A stretch of DNA of 64,000 bases from Salinivirga cyanobacteriivorans (lineage in GTDB: Bacteria > Bacteroidota > Bacteroidia > Bacteroidales > Salinivirgaceae): positions 3,281,501 through 3,345,500 of the forward strand of contig NZ_CP013118.1 in assembly GCF_001443605.1 (NCBI RefSeq). The letters are read 5' to 3'. Of this stretch, positions 9,092 through 18,616 are shown in pieces (positions within the stretch are counted from its first letter, which is position 1; each line of letters starts with the position of its first letter). Under the pieces are notes generated by a model. The model was not told the DNA's origin. It made no database searches and saw nothing but the letters and a program-made list of their open reading frames with translations. A program made the position numbers and the translations under genes.

Positions 9092-10061
9092 TAGAGGTCA
9101 GTAGATAAATTCATATAATATATTATCTTTGATACCAATAAAATCAATGATTTAATGGAATTATTCAAAGGACAAAACCTCATAGAGTTTGCTACACGCT
9201 TTAATTCGGATGAAAAGTGTATTGAATATTTAGCTCATATTAAATGGCAAGATGGATTTAGATGTGTTAAATGTGGTCATACCGGAAGTCAAGTAAGAAA
9301 GAATCATTCAAGAACGTGTAATAAGTGTAGTCATACTGAATCAGCAACAGCAAATACACTATTCCACAAAGTTAAATTTGGTGTTCAAAAGGCTTTTTTT
9401 ATTTGCTTTGAAATGGCAACTACAACCAAAAGTTTATCTGCAAGTTATGTTGGAGAACGCTTTGGGGTTACTGAGAAAACAGCTCGACTGTTTATGCATA
9501 AAGTACGGGAAGCGATGAAGTCAAGCGGTAATAACCCAATGAGTGGAAATGTACATATTGATGAGTTTGTAATTGGTGGAAAGGAAGAGGGAAAAGTTGG
9601 ACGTAGTTACCATATTAAGAAAAAGAAGGTTATATGTGCTGTAGAGCTTACTGATGATGGTAAGGTTAAACGCATGTACTCGATGAAAATAGACAACTAC
9701 TCATCGAAAGAGCTAGAAAAAATGTTCGATGCGCATATTTCTCAACAGGCAAAGGTAACAACAGATCAATGGAAGGGCTACCGTCCACTCATGTCAAGCT
9801 ATGATATAAGACAAATCGAGAGTGACAGAGGTTCCAACTTCAAGGCTTTGCACACAATGATTCATCAAGTTAAATCTTGGATAAGAACCACTTACTCATG
9901 GGTTAGCACTCACAATATCAACAGGTATCTTGACGAGTTTTGCTACCGACTTAATCGTTCTCAAATGAAAAAGAATATTTTCAATAATTTGGTACGCAGG
10001 ATGGTTATTGCTGATAAAGTAAAGCAAGCAGATTTAATATGCAGTTAAATACTGACCTCTA
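9092..10061 (+). mobile_element. IS1595-family insertion sequence (970 bp)
   Basis: The ends are inverted repeats: 12 bases TAGAGGTCAGTA are identical at left (9092) and right (complement from 10061), and imperfect similarity continues for about 28 bp. The element is bounded by an 8-bp direct repeat TAAAGCTA at 9084-9091 and 10062-10069, the duplication length expected for IS1595-type elements. It contains one transposase gene and nothing else. The perfect duplication and clean gene restoration on excision indicate a recent insertion. Confidence 0.93.
9155..10048 (+). CDS. IS1595-family (ISXO2-like) transposase
   Basis: 297 residues. An N-terminal zinc ribbon (CVKC at 37-40, CNKC at 55-58) leads to a helix-turn-helix region and the ISXO2-like DDE catalytic core. 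Likely catalytic residues are Asp136 in VHIDEFVIGG, Asp204 in TTDQWKGY and Glu261 in RYLDEFCYRLNR; the last motif is the family signature. It fills the element, whose ends lie 63 bp upstream and 13 bp downstream. The gene is intact, so the element may be active. The annotated start follows a TTTA-ATG context with no evident Shine-Dalgarno. Confidence 0.93.
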   Translation: MELFKGQNLIEFATRFNSDEKCIEYLAHIKWQDGFRCVKCGHTGSQVRKNHSRTCNKCSHTESATANTLFHKVKFGVQKAFFICFEMATTTKSLSASYVGERFGVTEKTARLFMHKVREAMKSSGNNPMSGNVHIDEFVIGGKEEGKVGRSYHIKKKKVICAVELTDDGKVKRMYSMKIDNYSSKELEKMFDAHISQQAKVTTDQWKGYRPLMSSYDIRQIESDRGSNFKALHTMIHQVKSWIRTTYSWVSTHNINRYLDEFCYRLNRSQMKKNIFNNLVRRMVIADKVKQADLICS

Positions 10062-11445
10062 TAAAGCTATTTCATCCTCTGGTATGAGACTGGATTCGGT
10101 AATTGAACAATCGTATTATGATGTTACCGGTCAATTTGTGAATGATGAGAAACATGTGTTAAGCTTTGATGATGACAATAAGCTGACCTTGTGGTTGCAA
10201 TATGCTGTAGATGAGGTAACCGGAAATTGGGTTAATGATGCAAAAGAAGAGTTCAATTACGATGAACAGGGGAACGAAATCTTGAACATTGAATATGAAT
10301 GGGATTCTGAAGCTTCTGACTGGATGCCTATAAAAAAGATCGAAAAAGTTTTTAATGTATATGGTAATGCAACACAGTTCGTTCGTTTCAACTGGGATAC
10401 CATAAATAACGCATGGTTACCTGACCTAAAGAGTAATACAACCTATGATTCTGCACAAAATGCAATTGAATATAATTATAAACGCTGGAATGCATCCACA
10501 GACTCATGGGATAATTATTTTATCAGGTATTATGGCTATGATTCAGATAACAATACTACCTTTTCTTATGTGATGTACTGGAGTGATTATTCCAGTACCT
10601 ATAAGAAACAATATAGATATGAACTTAGCTATGATGATAGTCTTGTGTTGCAAAGTATTCGTTATGATGGCGATACCATTAATGATGTATGGATTGAAGA
10701 TTCTAAGACAGAATATTCGTACAATTCTTTTGGCAATCAAACACAGTACATTTATTATCAAATGGAATCATCATGGCAGCCTCAATCTAAAACAGCGTTT
10801 GCTTATGATAATTCACAAAATGAAACATCCGAAACTGTATTTGCCTGGGATGAGAATAATAGCGAATGGTATCCTAATTATCGATATGAACGCGATTTTG
10901 ATGCATCAAATAATATGATAGAAATGATTTATGCCAGGTGGGGCCCAAACACAGATAGTTGGGACAATAGCCAAAAATGGGGGCGTGAATATGATAATAG
11001 CGTGAGCTATAATAACCTAATAATACCATTATCTTTTTATTACTCAGGTATCAATGCTTATAATTCTGTTGAAGAAGTTTTTAAACACCAATTGGTATCC
11101 AGAAGTGAATATGATTGGAACAGTACTAATGATGTATGGGACGAAACTATATTGGAACATTTCTATTATACGGAACAGTCTGTAAATATTGCCAATACTG
11201 CTAATAAAGCGTTCAGCGTTTATCCAAACCCGGTTTCAGGTAACCTTTATATTGAATCTGATACAGATATATCTGAGATTAGAGTTATAGATGCTACCGG
11301 TAGATATGTAAGGTCAGAATCTGCCCCGGGTAAGAAAGAGAGGATAAACCTTAGCGATTTAGAGGAGGGTATGTATTTCGTCAGGTTGCTACTGAGCAAT
11401 GGCGAATATGAAACCAAAAGAATTATAAAAGAATAAAGCAATCAG

Positions 11446-11763: not shown

Positions 11764-13275
11764 ATGTTACTAAAAAAAATTACTTTACTTATTGCTATAG
11801 CTGGAACAGCATTCAACCTGTTATCACAGGAATCAATAACGAATTCCAAATTTGACCAGGAGATTATACAAAGTCAAAATTCTGATGAATTGCCCAAAAT
11901 GAAAGCCAGAGCATCATCTGCTATGAGATTGGACTCTAGTATTGAGCAGTCATATTACGATGTCACTGGACAATTTGTAAATGAAGAAAAGAATGTATTT
12001 GGTTATGATGATGATAACAACTTAACCCTTTGGCTTCATTATACAGTAGATGAAGTAACAGGCGATTGGATCAATGATATGAAATCGGAATACTTCACCG
12101 ATGAACAGGGAAATGAAATAAAGTACATCCGATATGAATGGGATTCTGAAGCTTCTATGTGGGAGCCAAAAAACAAGACCGAATTTGAATATAATGTGTA
12201 TGGGAGTGAAACACAGCGTGTTATGTTTGAGTGGGATACCGCGAATAACTCATGGCTTCCTGAGATGCGAAGAATTACAACTTATGATACCTCGCAAAAT
12301 ATAATTGAAGAGAATCATAATACCTGGAATGCATCCACGGACTCTTGGGACAATGATTTTGTAGAGTTTTATGATTATGACTCAGCTAATAATCGTATAC
12401 TCAAGTATATCCACTGGTGGAGTAGCTACTCTAATGTTTATCAGAAGGGTTACAAATTTGAATCTACATATGATAATGGTCTCGAGACGCAGAGAATTGA
12501 ATATACTGGGGATACGATCAATGATGTGTGGATTGAGGCTGGTAAATTCGAATATTCGTACAATTCATTTGGCAACATTACTCAAAGATTATACTATGAA
12601 ATGATGTCATCATGGGAGCCCTTATCAAAAAAAGAATTTTCTTATGATGATTCACAAAATCTGATTTTTGAAGTTATTTTTTCATGGGACGAAAATCAAA
12701 GTAGTTGGACACCATTTTTGAAAGAGGACTATGGTCTTGATGCATCAAATAATATGGTAGAGAGGATATATTTCTATTGGGATTCAAATGAAGATACCTG
12801 GAAAAAAAATAGTAAAGATGAGCGTGAATATAATAACGCAGTGACTTATAGCGGATTAATTATACCAATGATTGGTATTTATTCATCTAATAACGCTTAC
12901 GATGCTCCTGAAGAAATGTTTAATCATCAGCTTGTTTCGAGAAGTAATTATGGCTGGAACAGTACGGATGATGCATGGGAAGCAACCACCTTAGAACATT
13001 TCTATTATACGGAACAGTCTGTAAATATTGCCAATACTGCCAATAAAGCGTTCAGCGTTTATCCAAACCCGGTTTCAGGTAACCTTTATATTGAATCTGA
13101 TACAGATATATCTGAGATTAGAGTTATAGATGCAACCGGTAGATATGTAAGGTCAGAATCTGCCCCGGGTAATAAAGAGGCATTAAATCTCAGTGGTTTA
13201 AAAGAAGGTGTGTATATTGTCAGGTTACTGCTGAGTAATGGCGAAACTGAGACCAGACGAATTATAAAAGACTAA
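11764..13275 (+). CDS. Type IX-secreted YD-like repeat protein, intact paralogue
   Basis: 503 residues. Signal peptide MLLKKITLLIAIAGTAFNLLSQ, then a body of degenerate repeats rich in Trp, Tyr, Asp and Asn (YDVTGQFVNEEKNVFGYDDD, WDSEASMWEP, YNSFGN, WNASTDSWDN), resembling YD-repeat cell-surface proteins. It ends in a type A sorting domain (FSVYPNPVSGNLYIESDTD, then GVYIVRLLLSNGE, RRIIKD) that directs export through the type IX system. Function and ligand are unknown. It aligns throughout with the IS-split gene upstream, and 179 bp of the C-terminal coding DNA are nearly identical. It probably keeps the ancestral function. A strong terminator follows. Confidence 0.85.
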   Translation: MLLKKITLLIAIAGTAFNLLSQESITNSKFDQEIIQSQNSDELPKMKARASSAMRLDSSIEQSYYDVTGQFVNEEKNVFGYDDDNNLTLWLHYTVDEVTGDWINDMKSEYFTDEQGNEIKYIRYEWDSEASMWEPKNKTEFEYNVYGSETQRVMFEWDTANNSWLPEMRRITTYDTSQNIIEENHNTWNASTDSWDNDFVEFYDYDSANNRILKYIHWWSSYSNVYQKGYKFESTYDNGLETQRIEYTGDTINDVWIEAGKFEYSYNSFGNITQRLYYEMMSSWEPLSKKEFSYDDSQNLIFEVIFSWDENQSSWTPFLKEDYGLDASNNMVERIYFYWDSNEDTWKKNSKDEREYNNAVTYSGLIIPMIGIYSSNNAYDAPEEMFNHQLVSRSNYGWNSTDDAWEATTLEHFYYTEQSVNIANTANKAFSVYPNPVSGNLYIESDTDISEIRVIDATGRYVRSESAPGNKEALNLSGLKEGVYIVRLLLSNGETETRRIIKD

Positions 13276-13407: not shown

Positions 13408-14400
13408 TCAGTTAATAACCCTTGGTGCTTTTTGCTCCAGTAGCATCAAATCTGCAAGCACAATAGCCGTGGCTGCTTCGAGTACGGGAGGTACCCGGAG
13501 TGCAATGCAGCGGTCATGCCTGCCCTCAATCTTCAGGGCTTCGACCTCTCCTTTTTGCAGATTCATGGTGTTTTGGGCTGTTGACACACTGCTGGTGGGT
13601 TTTACAGCCACCCGAAACTCCAGTTCATTACCATTGCTTATGCCGCCGTTGATCCCGCCTGCATGGTTGGTTTCTGTTTTACCTTTGGCATCGATGATAT
13701 TATCATTATGCGCTGCACCGGTCATCTGTGCCGCCCGGAAACCAGAGCCAAATTCAATTCCTTTAATGGCCGGTATGGCAAACACAATGTGACTCAACAG
13801 TGATTCAACCGAGTCGAAGAAAGGTTCACCCAGACCTACGGGTAAATTGTTGACTTTGCATTCCACAATGCCACCGATAGACTGGTTTGCTTCAATGGCC
13901 TTGTTGATGGCCGACTCTATATCGCTCTCGCCACCTGCCTTGATGAGCCGGGCTTCAATATTCAGGTTTTCGCATACTTTTTTAGCAACCACACCTGCTG
14001 CAGTCAGGGGCAGGGTGAGGCGGCCTGAGAAATGCCCGCCACCGCGATAGTCAGCATATCCGCCAAATTTATGTTGGGCTACAAAATCAGCATGCCCCGG
14101 GCGGGGAGTTTTTTTTAGGTTGCTGTAATCTTTTGATCGTACGTTTTCATTGCGAAACAAAATAGTCAGGGGAGCTCCGGTTGTTTTGTTTTCAAATATC
14201 CCGGTAAGTAGTTCCGGCTGATCGCTTTCCTTTCGGGGAGTGGTGCCTTTTGCTCCGCTTTTACGGCGCGCCAGGTCGGCTTCAAAATCGGTTTTGCTCA
14301 ATGGTATGCCGGCCGGGCAACCGTCAATGTTAATTCCCACGGCTCCTCCATGCGATTCGCCAAATATATGAATACGAAATAGTCGTCCGAATGTGTTCAT
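13408..14400 (-). CDS. aroC: Chorismate synthase
   Basis: 330 residues, last gene of the minus-strand aromatic operon. It converts EPSP to chorismate with reduced FMN. All three family signatures can be read: GESHGGAVG near residue 14, GRHFSGRLT-type (GGGHFSGRLTLPLTAAGVVAKK near 119), and the C-terminal GRHDRC (near 299) followed by RVPPVLEAATAIVLAD. The protein is somewhat shorter than the common 350-390 residues but has both ends intact. Its product feeds TrpE/TrpG nearby and chorismate mutase in the next gene. A 30-bp gap separates it from the DAHP synthase gene. Confidence 0.95.
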   Translation of the reverse strand: MNTFGRLFRIHIFGESHGGAVGINIDGCPAGIPLSKTDFEADLARRKSGAKGTTPRKESDQPELLTGIFENKTTGAPLTILFRNENVRSKDYSNLKKTPRPGHADFVAQHKFGGYADYRGGGHFSGRLTLPLTAAGVVAKKVCENLNIEARLIKAGGESDIESAINKAIEANQSIGGIVECKVNNLPVGLGEPFFDSVESLLSHIVFAIPAIKGIEFGSGFRAAQMTGAAHNDNIIDAKGKTETNHAGGINGGISNGNELEFRVAVKPTSSVSTAQNTMNLQKGEVEALKIEGRHDRCIALRVPPVLEAATAIVLADLMLLEQKAPRVIN

Positions 14401-14430: not shown

Positions 14431-15567
14431 TTATTTTACGGCTTTTATGATCTGCTCATTCTTGTTCTTTGCTAAGGTGTGTTTTTCATTCATTACACGG
14501 GTTTGCTTGTTGATTGACTCCTGGTGGATGGCTTTGAACATTTTCATAATAAAGCCTGAGCTGAGCTCCCTTTTTTCTCCTTTTTTGATGTTGGTGCCCA
14601 AAATGTCTTCCCAACGTGATTGTTGTAAAATAGTCATGTTATTTTGTTTTTTATAATGCCCAATTTCCGTGGCCAGTGTCATTCTTTTCTGAATGATATC
14701 CAATAATTCGTTGTCAAGCTTATCAATCCGGAACCGTAAATCTTCCAGTGTGTTGAGCGAAACTCCTTCAGGATTCATTTTACGAATGATGAGGCTCTCA
14801 AGCATAATGTCGAGACTTTCGGGTGTGATTTGCTGCTTTGCATCGCTCCAGGCATTATCCGGATTGCAGTGCGATTCAATCATGAGGCCGTCAAAGTCCA
14901 GGTCCATGGCTTTTTGGGAGATACTTTGCAACAATTCGCGCCTTCCGGCAATGTGACTGGGGTCACAGAATATTGGTACCTGAGGTAATTGACTTCTCAG
15001 TTCAATGGGGATTTGCCAGTGGGGAACATTGCGATAAATACTGCGATCGTAGCTTGAGAAACCCCGGTGTATGGCCCCGATACGGGTTATACCTGCTTTG
15101 TTGATGCGCTCAATAGCTCCTACCCAAAGGTCAGCATCCGGGTTTACCGGGTTTTTTACCAGCACCGGCACATCGGCGCCATTCAGTGCATCGGCTATTT
15201 CCTGCATGGCAAACGGATTGGCCGATGTGCGAGCTCCTATCCAGAGTATATCAATTCCAGCTTCCAGGGCTTCTTTTACATGCATGGCATTTGCCACCTC
15301 AATTGCGATATGCATTCCGGTCTCTTTTTTAACACGTTTTAACCATGGTAACCCGATACTGCCCACACCCTCAAAAGAACCGGGCCGGGTGCGTGGTTTC
15401 CATATGCCTGCCCTGAAAACTGTTATTCCGTTTTTACTTAACGAACGGGCGGTTGTCATTACCTGTTCTTCTGTTTCGGCACTGCAGGGGCCCGAAATGA
15501 TGATAGGTTTTTTAGTATCTGCCAGGTTCCACTGGTTTATGGGAAGTAAATTAAGTTGCTTTTCCAT
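14431..15567 (-). CDS. Bifunctional DAHP synthase / chorismate mutase
   Basis: 378 residues with two domains. Residues about 20-265 are a KDO8P/DAHP synthase-type TIM barrel (IISGPCSAETEEQV, FRAGIWKPRTRPGSFEGVG, LWIGARTS, PVLVKNPV, HRGFSSYD, PIFCDPSHIAGRR, MIESHCNP). Residues about 275-360 are an AroQ-type chorismate mutase helix bundle (LEDLRFRIDKLDNELLDIIQKRM … EIGHYKKQNN). It opens and branches the aromatic pathway: PEP + E4P to DAHP, and chorismate to prephenate. In such Bacteroidota fusions the mutase domain often also provides feedback control. It starts 2 bp after tyrA ends. Confidence 0.93.
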   Translation of the reverse strand: MEKQLNLLPINQWNLADTKKPIIISGPCSAETEEQVMTTARSLSKNGITVFRAGIWKPRTRPGSFEGVGSIGLPWLKRVKKETGMHIAIEVANAMHVKEALEAGIDILWIGARTSANPFAMQEIADALNGADVPVLVKNPVNPDADLWVGAIERINKAGITRIGAIHRGFSSYDRSIYRNVPHWQIPIELRSQLPQVPIFCDPSHIAGRRELLQSISQKAMDLDFDGLMIESHCNPDNAWSDAKQQITPESLDIMLESLIIRKMNPEGVSLNTLEDLRFRIDKLDNELLDIIQKRMTLATEIGHYKKQNNMTILQQSRWEDILGTNIKKGEKRELSSGFIMKMFKAIHQESINKQTRVMNEKHTLAKNKNEQIIKAVK

Positions 15568-15569
15568 AA

Positions 15570-16412
15570 TTATCTATTTAGTACACGTTTAATTTTATTC
15601 GATTGATTAATTAACTCAGTAATGTTTGTGCTATCCTGATCTGTAATGGCTTTTTTGAATGTCTGCAAGTGTTCAATATAGGTGTCGAGTACAGTTGCTA
15701 CATTTTCTGAATTTTCCATGAAAATGGGAGCCCACATGCTTGCCGGACTTTTGGCCAGACGCACTGTGGAATCAAAGCCACCACTTGCTAAATCGAGAAT
15801 GTTTTTTTCGTTTTTTTCTTTCTCCAGTACAGTAAGTGCCAGGGCCATAGAACTGATGTGAGAGATATGCGATATGTATGCTGCGTGTACGTCATGGTTG
15901 TATGCATTCATATAAATAATGCGCATGTTTAAGCATTCGTACATCGTTTTAATTGTTTGCAAAGCTTTATCGCTGCTGTCTTCTGCATCAGTTATGATGG
16001 TTGCCCTTCCATCAAACAAACCAGAAAATGCGGCACGTGGACCACTGTGCTCAGTGCCTGCCATTGGATGGGTACTCACAAAGTTTTCTCGTTTTTTGTG
16101 ATAGTAAACCCTTTCATTGAGTTTGCCTTTGGTCGAACATACATCAGCTACAATTTGCTCATCTATCTGGTCAAGTACTTTGGGAAGTATTTTTAGTGAA
16201 ACATCAACAGGCGTAGCCAGTAAAATAAGGTCTGCCTGCGCTATCCCTTCCTGCATTTCCATAATTTTATCCACTATTCCCAGTTGCAAGGCGGCTTCGG
16301 CATGTATCGCATTGCTGTCAATACCAATAATAGTCTGTGCAAATCCGCGCGATTTGAGGTCTATAGCCATGGAGCTGCCAATAAGCCCCAGTCCGATAAC
16401 TGTAACTATCAT
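15570..16412 (-). CDS. tyrA: Prephenate dehydrogenase
   Basis: 280 residues. The NAD-binding GLGLIGSSMA sits at residues 7-16, followed by LLATPVDV, DVCSTKG and STHPMAGTEHSGPRAAF, the prephenate dehydrogenase signature with the catalytic His. The C-terminal all-helical dimerisation domain contains ASGGFDSTVRLAKSPASMW. It oxidatively decarboxylates prephenate to 4-hydroxyphenylpyruvate. No ACT domain is seen, so feedback control probably acts elsewhere. Its start overlaps the end of the aminotransferase gene by 4 bp, and the DAHP synthase gene follows after 2 bp. Confidence 0.93.
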   Translation of the reverse strand: MIVTVIGLGLIGSSMAIDLKSRGFAQTIIGIDSNAIHAEAALQLGIVDKIMEMQEGIAQADLILLATPVDVSLKILPKVLDQIDEQIVADVCSTKGKLNERVYYHKKRENFVSTHPMAGTEHSGPRAAFSGLFDGRATIITDAEDSSDKALQTIKTMYECLNMRIIYMNAYNHDVHAAYISHISHISSMALALTVLEKEKNEKNILDLASGGFDSTVRLAKSPASMWAPIFMENSENVATVLDTYIEHLQTFKKAITDQDSTNITELINQSNKIKRVLNR

Positions 16413-17581
16413 ATAGCGATCTTTTGTAGGTTTTTAATTCGATATAGCATGCGCACAAATTCTTCATCAGGAGCAGCAAGCGAGAATCTTACATATTCGT
16501 TTCCATTGGAGCCGAAAATGCCTCCCGGAGCAACGAAAATCCCCAGTTCATAGAGCAAATGATCGACAAATGCATAGCCATCTGGAAAAACATCAGGAGC
16601 TTTAGCCCAAACAAACATGCCGCTTGTATTTTTAGAATAAGTACAGTTTAAGTGGTCAAGTGCTTCGAAAACCAGTTTGCGGCGCTTGCTGTAAACCTCG
16701 TTTGTGTTGTTGTACCAGGTTCCATTCAGTTTAAGCGCTTCATTCGCAGCATCTTGAATTGGTAAGTACATGCCCGAGTCGTAATTACTTTTTACTTTTA
16801 ATAAATGCTTAATCAACTGTGGATGCCCTGCCACCATACCTACCCGGAAACCCTGCATCCGATGTGATTTACTTAATGAGTTGAGTTCAAAACAGAATTC
16901 TTTACTGCCAGGGACAGATAGAATACTTAGCGGGTCATCATTTAATATTAGACTGTAAGGGTTATCATGTGCAATAAGCACTTTGTGCTGTTTCCCAAAT
17001 TTTATAAGTTTTTTGAAGAGTTCATCGCTCGCTTTAGCTCCTGTAGGCATGTGCGGGTAATTTACCCACATTATTTTGGGTTTTTTACGGGCAAGATGCT
17101 CCAATTCAGAAAAGTCCGGGTACCATCCATTGCCGGCTTTCAGGTTGTAGTGTAATACATTTGCTCCGAGTAATTTTGCAACTGCGGTGTAAGCTGGGTA
17201 ACCCGGGTTGGGCACCAATGCGGTATCACCTGCATTTACAAAAGCCAGCATAGAGAGCATGATGCCTTCCTTAGAACCGGCAAGTGGTAGAATTTCATTT
17301 TCTGAATCTAGTTCAATATTGTATATGCGCTGATACCAATCTGAAAATGCATTTCTAAGCATTTCGGTCCCTCTGTATGGTTGGTAATAATGGCTCTGTG
17401 GTTGTTCTGAGCTTTTTCTTAAAGTGTTTAGCACTTGCTCATGCACTGCCATATCGGGGTTCCCAATTCCTAGATTAATGATAGAGTGGCCCGTAGACGT
17501 TAACTGTTTTATCTCTTCCAGTTTCCCTGAGAAATAGTAAGTCTCGACCTTTCTAATTCGTTCTGCCGGTTCAATGTTCAT
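16409..17581 (-). CDS. Class I/II PLP aminotransferase of the aromatic operon
   Basis: 390 residues, fold type I. The PLP lysine is Lys238 in SLSKSHRMQGFRVG, the nearby Arg245 and a HDNPYS stretch (near 205) bind cofactor, and LAGSKEGI is near 100. By operon position it most likely transaminates 4-hydroxyphenylpyruvate and phenylpyruvate to Tyr and Phe. Sequence alone does not exclude LL-diaminopimelate or aspartate activity. First gene of the operon, beginning 22 nt after terminator 2 of the leader region. No prephenate dehydratase (pheA) gene is present in this operon. Confidence 0.85.
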   Translation of the reverse strand: MNIEPAERIRKVETYYFSGKLEEIKQLTSTGHSIINLGIGNPDMAVHEQVLNTLRKSSEQPQSHYYQPYRGTEMLRNAFSDWYQRIYNIELDSENEILPLAGSKEGIMLSMLAFVNAGDTALVPNPGYPAYTAVAKLLGANVLHYNLKAGNGWYPDFSELEHLARKKPKIMWVNYPHMPTGAKASDELFKKLIKFGKQHKVLIAHDNPYSLILNDDPLSILSVPGSKEFCFELNSLSKSHRMQGFRVGMVAGHPQLIKHLLKVKSNYDSGMYLPIQDAANEALKLNGTWYNNTNEVYSKRRKLVFEALDHLNCTYSKNTSGMFVWAKAPDVFPDGYAFVDHLLYELGIFVAPGGIFGSNGNEYVRFSLAAPDEEFVRMLYRIKNLQKIAI

Positions 17582-17602: not shown

Positions 17603-17635
17603 AAAAAAAAGGCGTCCTCATATTTGGGACGCCTT
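17603..17635 (-). terminator. Attenuator terminator 2 of the aromatic operon
   Basis: On the minus strand a 9-bp stem (AAGGCGTCC, 17635-17627, with GGACGCCTT, 17617-17609), a 9-nt loop, and a T run of eight (A's at 17603-17610). It ends 22 nt before the aminotransferase start. Confidence 0.9.
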
Positions 17636-17670
17636 CTGAATTGTATACAAAATTTTGTACAACCACACAG

Positions 17671-17739
17671 CTATCCCGTTTGGTTACCGTAATAGTACCA
17701 ATAATAATATGCTACATGGTTGTTAATATCTTTGCTCAT
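17671..17739 (-). CDS. Aromatic operon leader peptide 2 (YYYWYYY)
   Basis: A 22-codon minus-strand ORF from ATG at 17739 to TAG at 17671. Residues 11-17 are YYYWYYY: six Tyr and one Trp in seven consecutive codons. It lies between the two terminators, like trp leader 2. GGGAT at its end can pair with GTCCC at the top of the terminator stem (5 bp, one wobble), and AACCA with TGGTT just downstream, so alternative folds exist, though weaker than for leader 1. Predicted role: sensing charged tRNA-Tyr. Confidence 0.78.
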   Translation of the reverse strand: MSKDINNHVAYYYWYYYGNQTG

Positions 17740-17750
17740 CTGCTTAAAAT

Positions 17751-17773
17751 AAAAAACCCCGCTTGTGGCGGGG
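17751..17773 (-). terminator. Attenuator terminator 1 of the aromatic operon
   Basis: On the minus strand CCCCGC (17773-17768), loop CACAA, GCGGGG (17762-17757), then six T. A strong GC stem in an AT-rich spacer. Its 5' arm CCCGCC (17772-17767) is also complementary to GGCGGG (17811-17806) just after the stop codon of leader 1, the classical antiterminator arrangement. Confidence 0.9.
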
Positions 17774-17811
17774 TGATAATTTTATTAAAATTTACACATA
17801 TCGGTCCCGCC

Positions 17812-17865
17812 TTATTTCGTGTTGAAATAATAAAATGACCAATAATATGTGTGTATGCTTTGCAT
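17812..17865 (-). CDS. Aromatic operon leader peptide 1 (YYWSFYYF)
   Basis: A 17-codon minus-strand ORF encoding MQSIHTYYWSFYYFNTK: four Tyr, two Phe and one Trp in eight consecutive codons. It begins 12 nt after the promoter -7 box. ATTGGTC in the Tyr-Trp-Ser codons (17843-17837) pairs with GACCGAT (17806-17800), segment 1:2. The overlapping GGCGGG (17811-17806) pairs with the terminator 5' arm, segment 2:3. The two pairings exclude each other, as in enteric trp and phe attenuators. It would sense Tyr and Phe supply together. Confidence 0.82.
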   Translation of the reverse strand: MQSIHTYYWSFYYFNTK

Positions 17866-17877
17866 AATCTTAAGTTT

Positions 17878-17907
17878 CAAAACTAAATATTTATTTTGAT
17901 AAAACAA
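17878..17907 (-). promoter_or_regulatory. Promoter of the aromatic operon (TTG-N19-TAGTTTTG)
   Basis: On the minus strand TTG (17907-17905) and TAGTTTTG (17885-17878) are exactly 19 bp apart. Box sequence and spacing are the same as at the trp promoter. Transcription would begin a few nucleotides before leader peptide 1. Confidence 0.75.
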
Positions 17908-17980
17908 ATAAAAAATGTCCCTTTAATCTAATTAGGTAATTATCACATCTTTTTACACCTTTGTGTTAAATAATTGTGAT

Positions 17981-18616
17981 ATGGAAATAAATATATTGGA
18001 ATGGATTGGTTATTTGGCGTCGATACTTGTGGCCATATCATTAATGCTTACATCAATTGTAAGGTTAAGGATTGTTAATCTCATAGGTTCAGGGACATTT
18101 GCAGTTTATGGTTTTTTGATTGGCTCATTGCCTGTAGGATTTATGAATCTATTTATTGTTTTTGTCAATATTTATTACCTCTATTTACTGCTTAATAGAA
18201 AAGAGTATTTTGAAACACTTGAGGTTAGCCCTGAAAATAAATACCTGGCAAGATATCTCAAGTTTCACGAAAACGAAATCGAGCGTTATTTTCCGGGATT
18301 TATATTTGATTCACAAAAACATTCTTTTTGCTTCTTTATTTTGCGTGATGCTCAGGTTGCCGGACTTTTCATTGCATATCCCGAAAATGACCATACCCTA
18401 CATGTGGTATTGGACTATGTAGGGCCGCGTTATCGCGACCTGAAAAACGGGTATTACATTTATAATAAATTTGTAAACTTCTTTAAAGAGCAGAATTTTA
18501 ATAATATTATTGCAGAGGCCAGGAGCAAACATCATTATAAATATTTGCAAAGATTAAATTTCAAACCGCTTCCTGATCAGGGAGAACAAGAATTATTGTT
18601 TGAGAAAGGAATATGA
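17981..18616 (+). CDS. Membrane protein, YgjV-like N-terminus with GNAT-like C-terminal part
   Basis: 211 residues from ATG 17981; an upstream GTG at 17963 is possible but less likely. Residues about 5-75 form three hydrophobic segments (WIGYLASILVAISLMLTS, LIGSGTFAVYGFLIGSL, GFMNLFIVFVNIYYLYLLL), as in YgjV-type inner membrane proteins. Residues 85-211 are soluble, with FFILRDAQVAGLFIA, LDYVGPRYRDLKNG and YLQRLNFKPL, resembling an acetyltransferase-like fold. Function unknown. It is divergent from the aromatic operon, sharing the spacer that holds that operon's leader region, and not obviously linked to the arg genes behind it. Confidence 0.7.
   Translation: MEINILEWIGYLASILVAISLMLTSIVRLRIVNLIGSGTFAVYGFLIGSLPVGFMNLFIVFVNIYYLYLLLNRKEYFETLEVSPENKYLARYLKFHENEIERYFPGFIFDSQKHSFCFFILRDAQVAGLFIAYPENDHTLHVVLDYVGPRYRDLKNGYYIYNKFVNFFKEQNFNNIIAEARSKHHYKYLQRLNFKPLPDQGEQELLFEKGI

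Follow-up and report, generated by a model that had tools for sequence, protein, structure and literature searches.

Genes for nutrient biosynthesis are normally controlled by a single attenuator, as stated in the available sections of Lee and Groisman (2012; PMC3641672). The same sections describe two leaders with more than one element. The Salmonella mgtCBR leader contains two short ORFs, which act independently and read different signals, ATP and proline. Unlike mgtCBR, metE of B. clausii has two intrinsic-terminator sites, and these belong to tandem riboswitches. For Bacteroidota, the accessible part of Weinberg et al. (2010; PMC2864571) describes the Bacteroid-trp motif (RF01692), an aromatic-codon leader which is a trp leader by its name and its Rfam description. 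Leader attenuation in this phylum also appears in the available portions of two further papers, as a general statement only for Flavobacterium psychrophilum (PMC9723704) and as a hint in general terms for B. thetaiotaomicron (PMC7366714). A 2010 paper (PMC2965389) presented its Firmicutes case as the first leader-peptide system known to it beyond Proteobacteria and Actinobacteria.

The locus described here is part of the window, i.e., the whole stretch of 64,000 nucleotides of Salinivirga cyanobacteriivorans DNA that was analysed. We propose that its tyrosine-branch operon is preceded by two complete ribosome-mediated attenuators in series, whose control codons would be tuned to the product of the operon, and we put the probability of this reading at about 0.86. 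It builds on the anatomy of the region, its conservation, mutually exclusive pairings, the modularity of the units, the lack of a recognisable internal promoter, and a correlation between codons and gene content, all of which were computed from the sequence.

The operon and its leaders are encoded on the minus strand. The first structural gene encodes an aminotransferase class I/II (16409-17581, ATG at 17581; PF00155). It is followed by tyrA for prephenate dehydrogenase (15570-16412; PF02153, PF20463), a gene for DAHP synthase with a chorismate mutase domain (14431-15567; PF00793, PF01817), and aroC for chorismate synthase (13408-14400; PF01264). The original prediction had named DAHP synthase, tyrA, and aroC correctly and had omitted the aminotransferase as first gene. 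On the other side, the leader region has a divergent neighbour gene (17963-18616). Direct reading of the region confirms the proposed order of promoter-like site, leader 1, terminator, leader 2, terminator, and gene. The promoter-like site TTTG-N19-TAGTTTTG (17878-17908) has its TTTG at 17908-17905 and TAGTTTTG at 17885-17878, and transcription would presumably start from here. It was called from the sequence and by a pattern scan with TTTG-N-TAnnTTTG, which we take to be the Bacteroidota promoter consensus. A scan for sigma-70-type promoters gave 25 sites against 24.8 in shuffles and was set aside in favour of this pattern.

Leader peptide 1 (MQSIHTYYWSFYYFNTK, 17812-17865) has its ATG at 17865 and a stop codon that ends at 17812; its codons include two for Phe and four for Tyr. 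Segment 1 of the first attenuator (17837-17853) overlaps the control codons. In helix 1:2, ATTGGTC (17843-17837) pairs with GACCGAT (17806-17800), and the helix is extended by ACACATAT/ATATGTGT. It is longer than had first been stated, running over CACACATAT...GGTC with GACC..ATATGTGT, and the duplex amounts to -16.6 kcal/mol. Segment 2 is the antiterminator strand GGCGGGACCGATATGTGT (17794-17811), which forms a duplex with the terminator arm. In this helix 2:3, GGCGGG (17811-17806) pairs with CCCGCC (17772-17767), and none of 30 shuffles gave an equally good pairing. Segments 3:4 form terminator 1, ACCCCGCCACAAGCGGGGT-TTTTT (17756-17774). All three helices had been named in the original prediction and are present. 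Trp sensing through the single TGG per leader was considered but not adopted, as over 215 units Trp accounts for 1.4% of the residues in the leaders, and the TGG of leader 1 is placed inside the 1:2 stem (GGTC/GACC).

Leader peptide 2 (MSKDINNHVAYYYWYYYGNQTG, 17671-17739; ATG at 17739, stop codon ending at 17671) contains six Tyr codons and no Phe codon. Segment 2 of the second attenuator, CGGGATAGCTG (17668-17678), is a weaker antiterminator strand with -10.9 kcal/mol, as its 2:3 pairing with AGAAGGCGTCCC was matched by 3 of 30 shuffles. Terminator 2 (AGAAGGCGTCCCAAATATGAGGACGCCTTTT, 17607-17637) is followed by a T-tract.

The predicted mechanism is as follows. A ribosome would translate leader 1 on the nascent transcript. 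At low levels of charged tRNA-Tyr (or tRNA-Phe), it would stall in the aromatic codons and cover segment 1, which would leave segment 2 free to pair with segment 3 and keep terminator 1 from forming. With enough amino acids, the ribosome would reach the stop codon and cover segment 2, and terminator 1 would form. A polymerase that gets past terminator 1 would meet leader 2 and terminator 2, where the same rule would apply, almost purely for Tyr. As both gates would have to be passed, leakage in the fed state would be the product of the two leakages, from which we infer a tighter off state and a steeper response. Such multiplicative gating would be the simplest role of the second gate. The codons would cover both Phe and Tyr where pheA sits in the operon; here, pheA would have been lost, and leader 2 is Tyr-only.

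Conservation was surveyed at loci of aminotransferase relatives, which at E 1e-90 occur in 130 of the 393 genomes of the order; the other 263 genomes lay outside the leader survey. The sample comprised 210 loci, namely 129 of these 130 genomes (G302, at a contig edge, was left out), a congener, and 80 named phylum loci, which are the best 80 of 585. After removal of 18 loci (5 duplicates, 2 at contig edges, L225 and L238, and 11 with less than 250 bases upstream), 192 remained. Where pheA was directly upstream, it was counted as the first gene of the operon. To count as a unit, an ORF had to be 9-48 codons long, include five or more Phe, Tyr, or Trp in nine residues, and be followed by a hairpin resembling an intrinsic terminator.

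Such a unit of aromatic leader and terminator was present in 175 of the 192 loci, and two units were present in 40; 17 loci had no unit by these fixed criteria. Within the order, the numbers were 118 of 124 loci with a unit and 27 with two, and a tandem locus was found in 17 of 47 families. Among the 68 named loci kept from the best 80 of 585, a unit was found in 57 and two units in 13. Examples of tandem loci are records of Chitinophaga, Hymenobacter, Ancylomarina, and Lewinella. Short ORFs might lie next to ordinary terminators by chance in AT-rich DNA, where runs rich in TTT and TAT easily yield aromatic codons. In dinucleotide shuffles of the upstream regions, however, one unit arose in 3 of 960 cases and two units in none. 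Because of these counts and the fixed spacing of the antiterminator given below, we regard a chance origin as already refuted.

Pairing was analysed in 214 units, as one of the 215 was dropped for its short spacer. For each unit, the stretch from the last control codon to the terminator was paired with the 5' arm of the terminator and compared with 30 shuffles. The antiterminator duplex was unmatched by any shuffle in 152 of the 214 units. The antiterminator strand starts at a median of 11 nt past the last control codon (IQR 9-13 nt), and the position of the stop codon varies from 7 to 36 nt past this codon (10th-90th percentile). At this distance, the strand would just be left free by a ribosome that has stalled in the aromatic run. 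A median of 8 terminator-arm bases are paired in both structures, and there are 165 distinct segment-3 cores in the 214 units, counts which are only descriptive because the pairings were picked as best duplexes. In this descriptive sense, the pairing is kept across relatives while the sequence changes. Helix 1:2 is less general, as only 36% of the 214 units have one better than each of 20 shuffles; in the window, leader 1 shows it clearly.

The strikingly aromatic peptides and the fixed distance between the run and the switch are features that an arrest peptide would also have. In this case, the nascent peptide would halt the ribosome in the manner of TnaC, and slow decoding of hungry codons would play no part. 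However, apart from being aromatic, the peptides vary in sequence, and Phe and Tyr replace each other as the gene content of the operon changes. tRNA charge therefore fits better than a specific arrest peptide, which we consider very improbable.

The units also appear to be modular. Compared with 60 arms from other loci, a unit's own terminator arm is better by a mean of -5.2 kcal/mol, and it ranks in the best 5% for 101 and in the best 10% for 150 of the 214 units. Of the 39 tandem loci compared, 35 have a segment 2 in unit 1 that favours terminator 1, and in 4 it favours terminator 2. Segment 2 of unit 2 prefers terminator 2 in 36 cases and terminator 1 in 2, with one tie. Owing to this preference for their own terminators, the two units are taken as independent modules. 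Between terminator 1 and leader 2, the presumed Bacteroidota pattern detected no promoter-like site in any of the 40 tandem loci, which is weak evidence because the same pattern found a site ahead of leader 1 in only 24 of the 40 and thus misses some.

What would be the role of the second gate? The original prediction described leader 1 as reading Tyr and Phe, leader 2 as reading almost only Tyr, and the operon as integrating two amino acids through serial gates. A dedicated two-input gate of this kind would sense Phe and Tyr in leader 1 and Tyr in leader 2 and respond to both shortages, and the codons of the window, with Phe confined to leader 1, agree with it. Over the 40 tandem loci, however, there is no such split, as the mean Phe share is equal in leader 1 (0.534) and leader 2 (0.523). 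Hence, leaders 1 and 2 are not generally sensors of different amino acids. In addition, neither the operon nor the genome contains PF00800, so the operon could not relieve a Phe shortage by that route. We therefore consider a two-input gate improbable. The codon content holds for the window and fails as a conserved design, and of the integrating gates, the serial attenuators are retained at the level of sequence and the division between Phe and Tyr is not.

Alternatively, one unit only might be active, with the other reduced to a decaying copy or serving as a plain terminator. The weak 2:3 pairing of leader 2 in the window could be read in this way, and so could the changes between single and tandem loci, of which a quickly built FastTree tree of 137 aminotransferases requires at least 16. 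Moreover, three loci (L067, L095, L107) have a single unit, placed where a former unit 1 would have been. However, in the congener both units form pairings that were matched by 0 of 30 shuffles; its leader 2 (locus L002) has the antiterminator CCCGGGATAACTTTG after its run, with -17.5 kcal/mol. Each leader of the window has kept seven aromatic codons, both units have kept their own pairing across the 39 tandem loci, and the trp and his operons of the same genome are likewise tandem. A single active unit is thus unlikely in our view, and we keep to the proposed two attenuators in series.

The codons of leader 2 point to the history of pheA. No PF00800 gene (prephenate dehydratase) was found in the genome of the window, which is one contig and 99.98% complete, and the same search was positive in 14 of 14 control genomes. 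Consequently, the operon would be unable to make Phe by the usual route. The genome has no PF00920 (ilvD/edd) match either, and trp, hisG, and tyrA are present; an auxotrophy for Phe and the branched-chain amino acids is possible. In the congener (G004, a kinship label given by the tool), the aminotransferase is 57% identical to that of the window, pheA is the first gene of the operon, and two leaders lie upstream. Its counterpart of leader 1 is MYTYYWSFFTFCIE, and its leader 2 is Phe-rich, given as KYFFFFFFWYFYY, KYFFFFFFWYFYYGSTRDN, and MTNTVKYFFFFFFWYFYYGSTRDNFVFN. Because the congener with pheA downstream has KYFFFFFFWYFYY, the Tyr-only leader 2 of the window is better explained by the loss of pheA. 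With the loss of pheA, a run rich in Phe in leader 2 likely turned into YYYWYYY, where we infer the direction of the change. In G005 and G001-G003, four more members of this family, neither PF00800 nor tyrA was detected.

Across all loci with a unit, the mean Phe/(Phe+Tyr) was 0.582 for those whose operon includes pheA (n = 150), 0.338 for those that have it elsewhere in the genome (n = 13), and 0.289 for those where none was found (n = 12). The latter two classes were assigned by hand, and draft genomes can miss a gene; the family codes used below were copied by hand. Family means of the Phe share were 0.574 for 37 families with pheA in the operon and 0.311 for 14 families without (p 2e-6). 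A Phe share of 0.25 or less was found in eleven loci, ten of them without pheA in the operon; the exception is L246 (pheA, 0.25). The ten include the all-Tyr runs SYYYYY in a Siphonobacter (L166) and NYYYYYG in another Cytophagales record (L190). Five families contain both states: f1 and f100 behave as expected, f109 and f119 overlap, and f81 is equal. With independent pairs on the tree (9 pairs, 200 random pairings), on average 6.7 pairs went the expected way, 0.0 against, and 2.3 were ties. The sign test on pairs varies with the cut. It gave a median p of 0.016 (range 0.016-0.22) at a cut of 0.45, which was chosen after seeing the data; for cuts from 0.30 to 0.55, the median p was 0.25, 0.125, 0.063, 0.016, 0.031, and 0.125, and at cuts other than 0.45, at most 1.0 pair on average went against.

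Counterexamples are L252, L052, L053, and L066, which have no pheA in the operon and yet a Phe share of at least 0.5. Leader codons seem to be tuned to the operon product in that loci without operon pheA tend to a Tyr bias, with exceptions. In L052 (the same record as L203), where the leader is still Phe-rich, positions 1305-1488 between the terminator and the aminotransferase may hold a remnant of pheA. The C-terminal portion of pheA can be aligned to this gap (E 2e-4), whereas a match of 15 N-terminal residues is only suggestive (E 0.08). The putative remnant reads as a recent loss.

Relocated pheA genes were inspected in 17 cases. Three have nearly Phe-only leaders with terminators (L274 with FRFFFFFAFFF, L279 with the same run, and L266 with MYFDFVFGFLFCF). 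In four others (L265, L267, L269, L270), the leaders mix Phe and Tyr and are followed by terminators; these four are from Saprospiraceae and Sphingobacterium, and their aminotransferase loci showed no unit. L268 has a Phe-rich ORF for which a terminator was not found, and 9 of the 17 had no acceptable leader; these include three from the same genus as L274 and L279. As a relative of the aminotransferase was absent from all 11 relocated-pheA stretches tested, the four mixed leaders speak against a strict rule.

The trp operon of the window, on the plus strand, shows the same tandem design, and the earlier statement that the aro operon repeats the trp layout is thus correct. It has leader 1 (MKRILNIWHWHNLDDQS, 1979-2032), terminator 1 (2061-2089), leader 2 (MEKIQKNKLWWWHIWQTIMS, 2117-2179), which overlaps a sub-threshold Bacteroid-trp match, and terminator 2 (2204-2231). 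Among 30 trp loci that were read, out of 74 genomes with a match, 3 are tandem, 22 are single, and 5 have no unit by the criteria. In the same genome, hisG is preceded by the two leaders MKRMSVHTAHHHHHIIV and MKNIQHHIHHHHGCNTHTAGCVWSE, with a terminator after each. The his leader region (L282:892-1321) has the His-rich runs HHHHH and HHIHHHH, and AAGCGCATTGGAAGCTTTAGTCGAAAAAA occurs twice between the two leaders (near 1037 and 1155 of L282). Hence, leaders were seen in three amino-acid operons of this genome, aro, trp, and his, and all are serial. In 240 bases upstream of argB, no leader was seen by eye, and the terminator scan lists no terminator there. The homoserine dehydrogenase gene (Thr) is situated behind another gene. 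Elsewhere in the window, there is a pair of related proteins with a C-terminal sorting domain (10039-11436, PF18962, and 11764-13275), and an IS1595-type transposase (9155-10048; PF12762, PF12760) directly precedes one of them.

Taken further, these results would suggest a Bacteroidota-wide family of Phe/Tyr attenuators, often with two multiplying serial switches, whose codons are rewritten by selection when pheA is lost or moved, with the serial layout shared by aro, trp, and his in this genome; we hold this wider view with somewhat better than even confidence. In the parts of the literature available to us, Phe/Tyr or serial leaders in Bacteroidota were not found described, and Lopatovskaya et al. 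2010 may cover part of this. If the wider view is true, the leader records which product regulates its operon, which suggests that pathway wiring could possibly be inferred from a 20-codon ORF. With serial units in 40 of 192 loci and in 17 of 47 families of the order, and with the repeated changes on the tree, the question "why two gates?" becomes comparative and testable. The shift of codons with gene content in several lineages would be natural evidence for what attenuator codons have been selected to sense.

We compared the leaders with known families. At the gathering score, Rfam gave no match in the window and 20 further loci (17 aro, 2 relocated pheA, and 1 trp). With relaxed thresholds, aro leader 1 scored 32.8 bits against Trp_leader RF00513 (E 4.9e-5 for 371 bases), below the cut-off of 41, and the aro leaders scored 23.5 and 19.0 bits against Phe_leader RF01859, also below the cut-off. 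As all these scores were under the cut-off, membership of the aro leaders in Trp_leader or Phe_leader was rejected. Trp leader 2 scored 43 bits against Bacteroid-trp RF01692 (gathering cut-off 49), and the trp leader 1 unit scored 33.8 bits against the trpB motif RF04312 (cut-off 59). An identity with Bacteroid-trp was rejected as well, as its matches do not include the aro leaders and trp leader 2 stays below the cut-off. A Bacteroid-trp search of the whole genome of the window gave no match at E 0.001. A separate search of viral contigs gave no match.

In comparison with the attenuators of E. coli trp and pheA, the aro units are alike in their leader ORF with control codons, segments 1-4, and intrinsic terminator. 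A short leader ORF with codons for the product is present, an intrinsic terminator, predicted from its sequence, lies between leader and gene, and an antiterminator that excludes the terminator lies beyond the stalled ribosome, although it is weaker in leader 2 of the window. The 1:2 pause or protector pairing over the control codons is distinct in the window's leader 1 and stands out from shuffles in 36% of units. Judged by their sequence features overall, the aro units probably work like the E. coli attenuators. They differ from them in that two are in series, the codons are of the Tyr type, the phylum is another, and no Rfam family matches at the gathering score. With Bacteroid-trp, they share the phylum and an aromatic-codon leader; Bacteroid-trp is named and described as a trp leader and did not match them. 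Like mgtCBR, as described in the sections of PMC3641672 at hand, the aro leader region has two short ORFs. Unlike mgtCBR, it has two complete units with intrinsic terminators of their own, both with codons for the operon's own products, and the codon content of the 40 tandem loci indicates no different signals per unit. With the tandem riboswitches of metE, as given in the same sections, the aro operon shares two switches and two terminators in series; the metE switches are ligand-binding RNAs without a leader peptide, unlike the aro leaders, in which the signal would be read by a translating ribosome.
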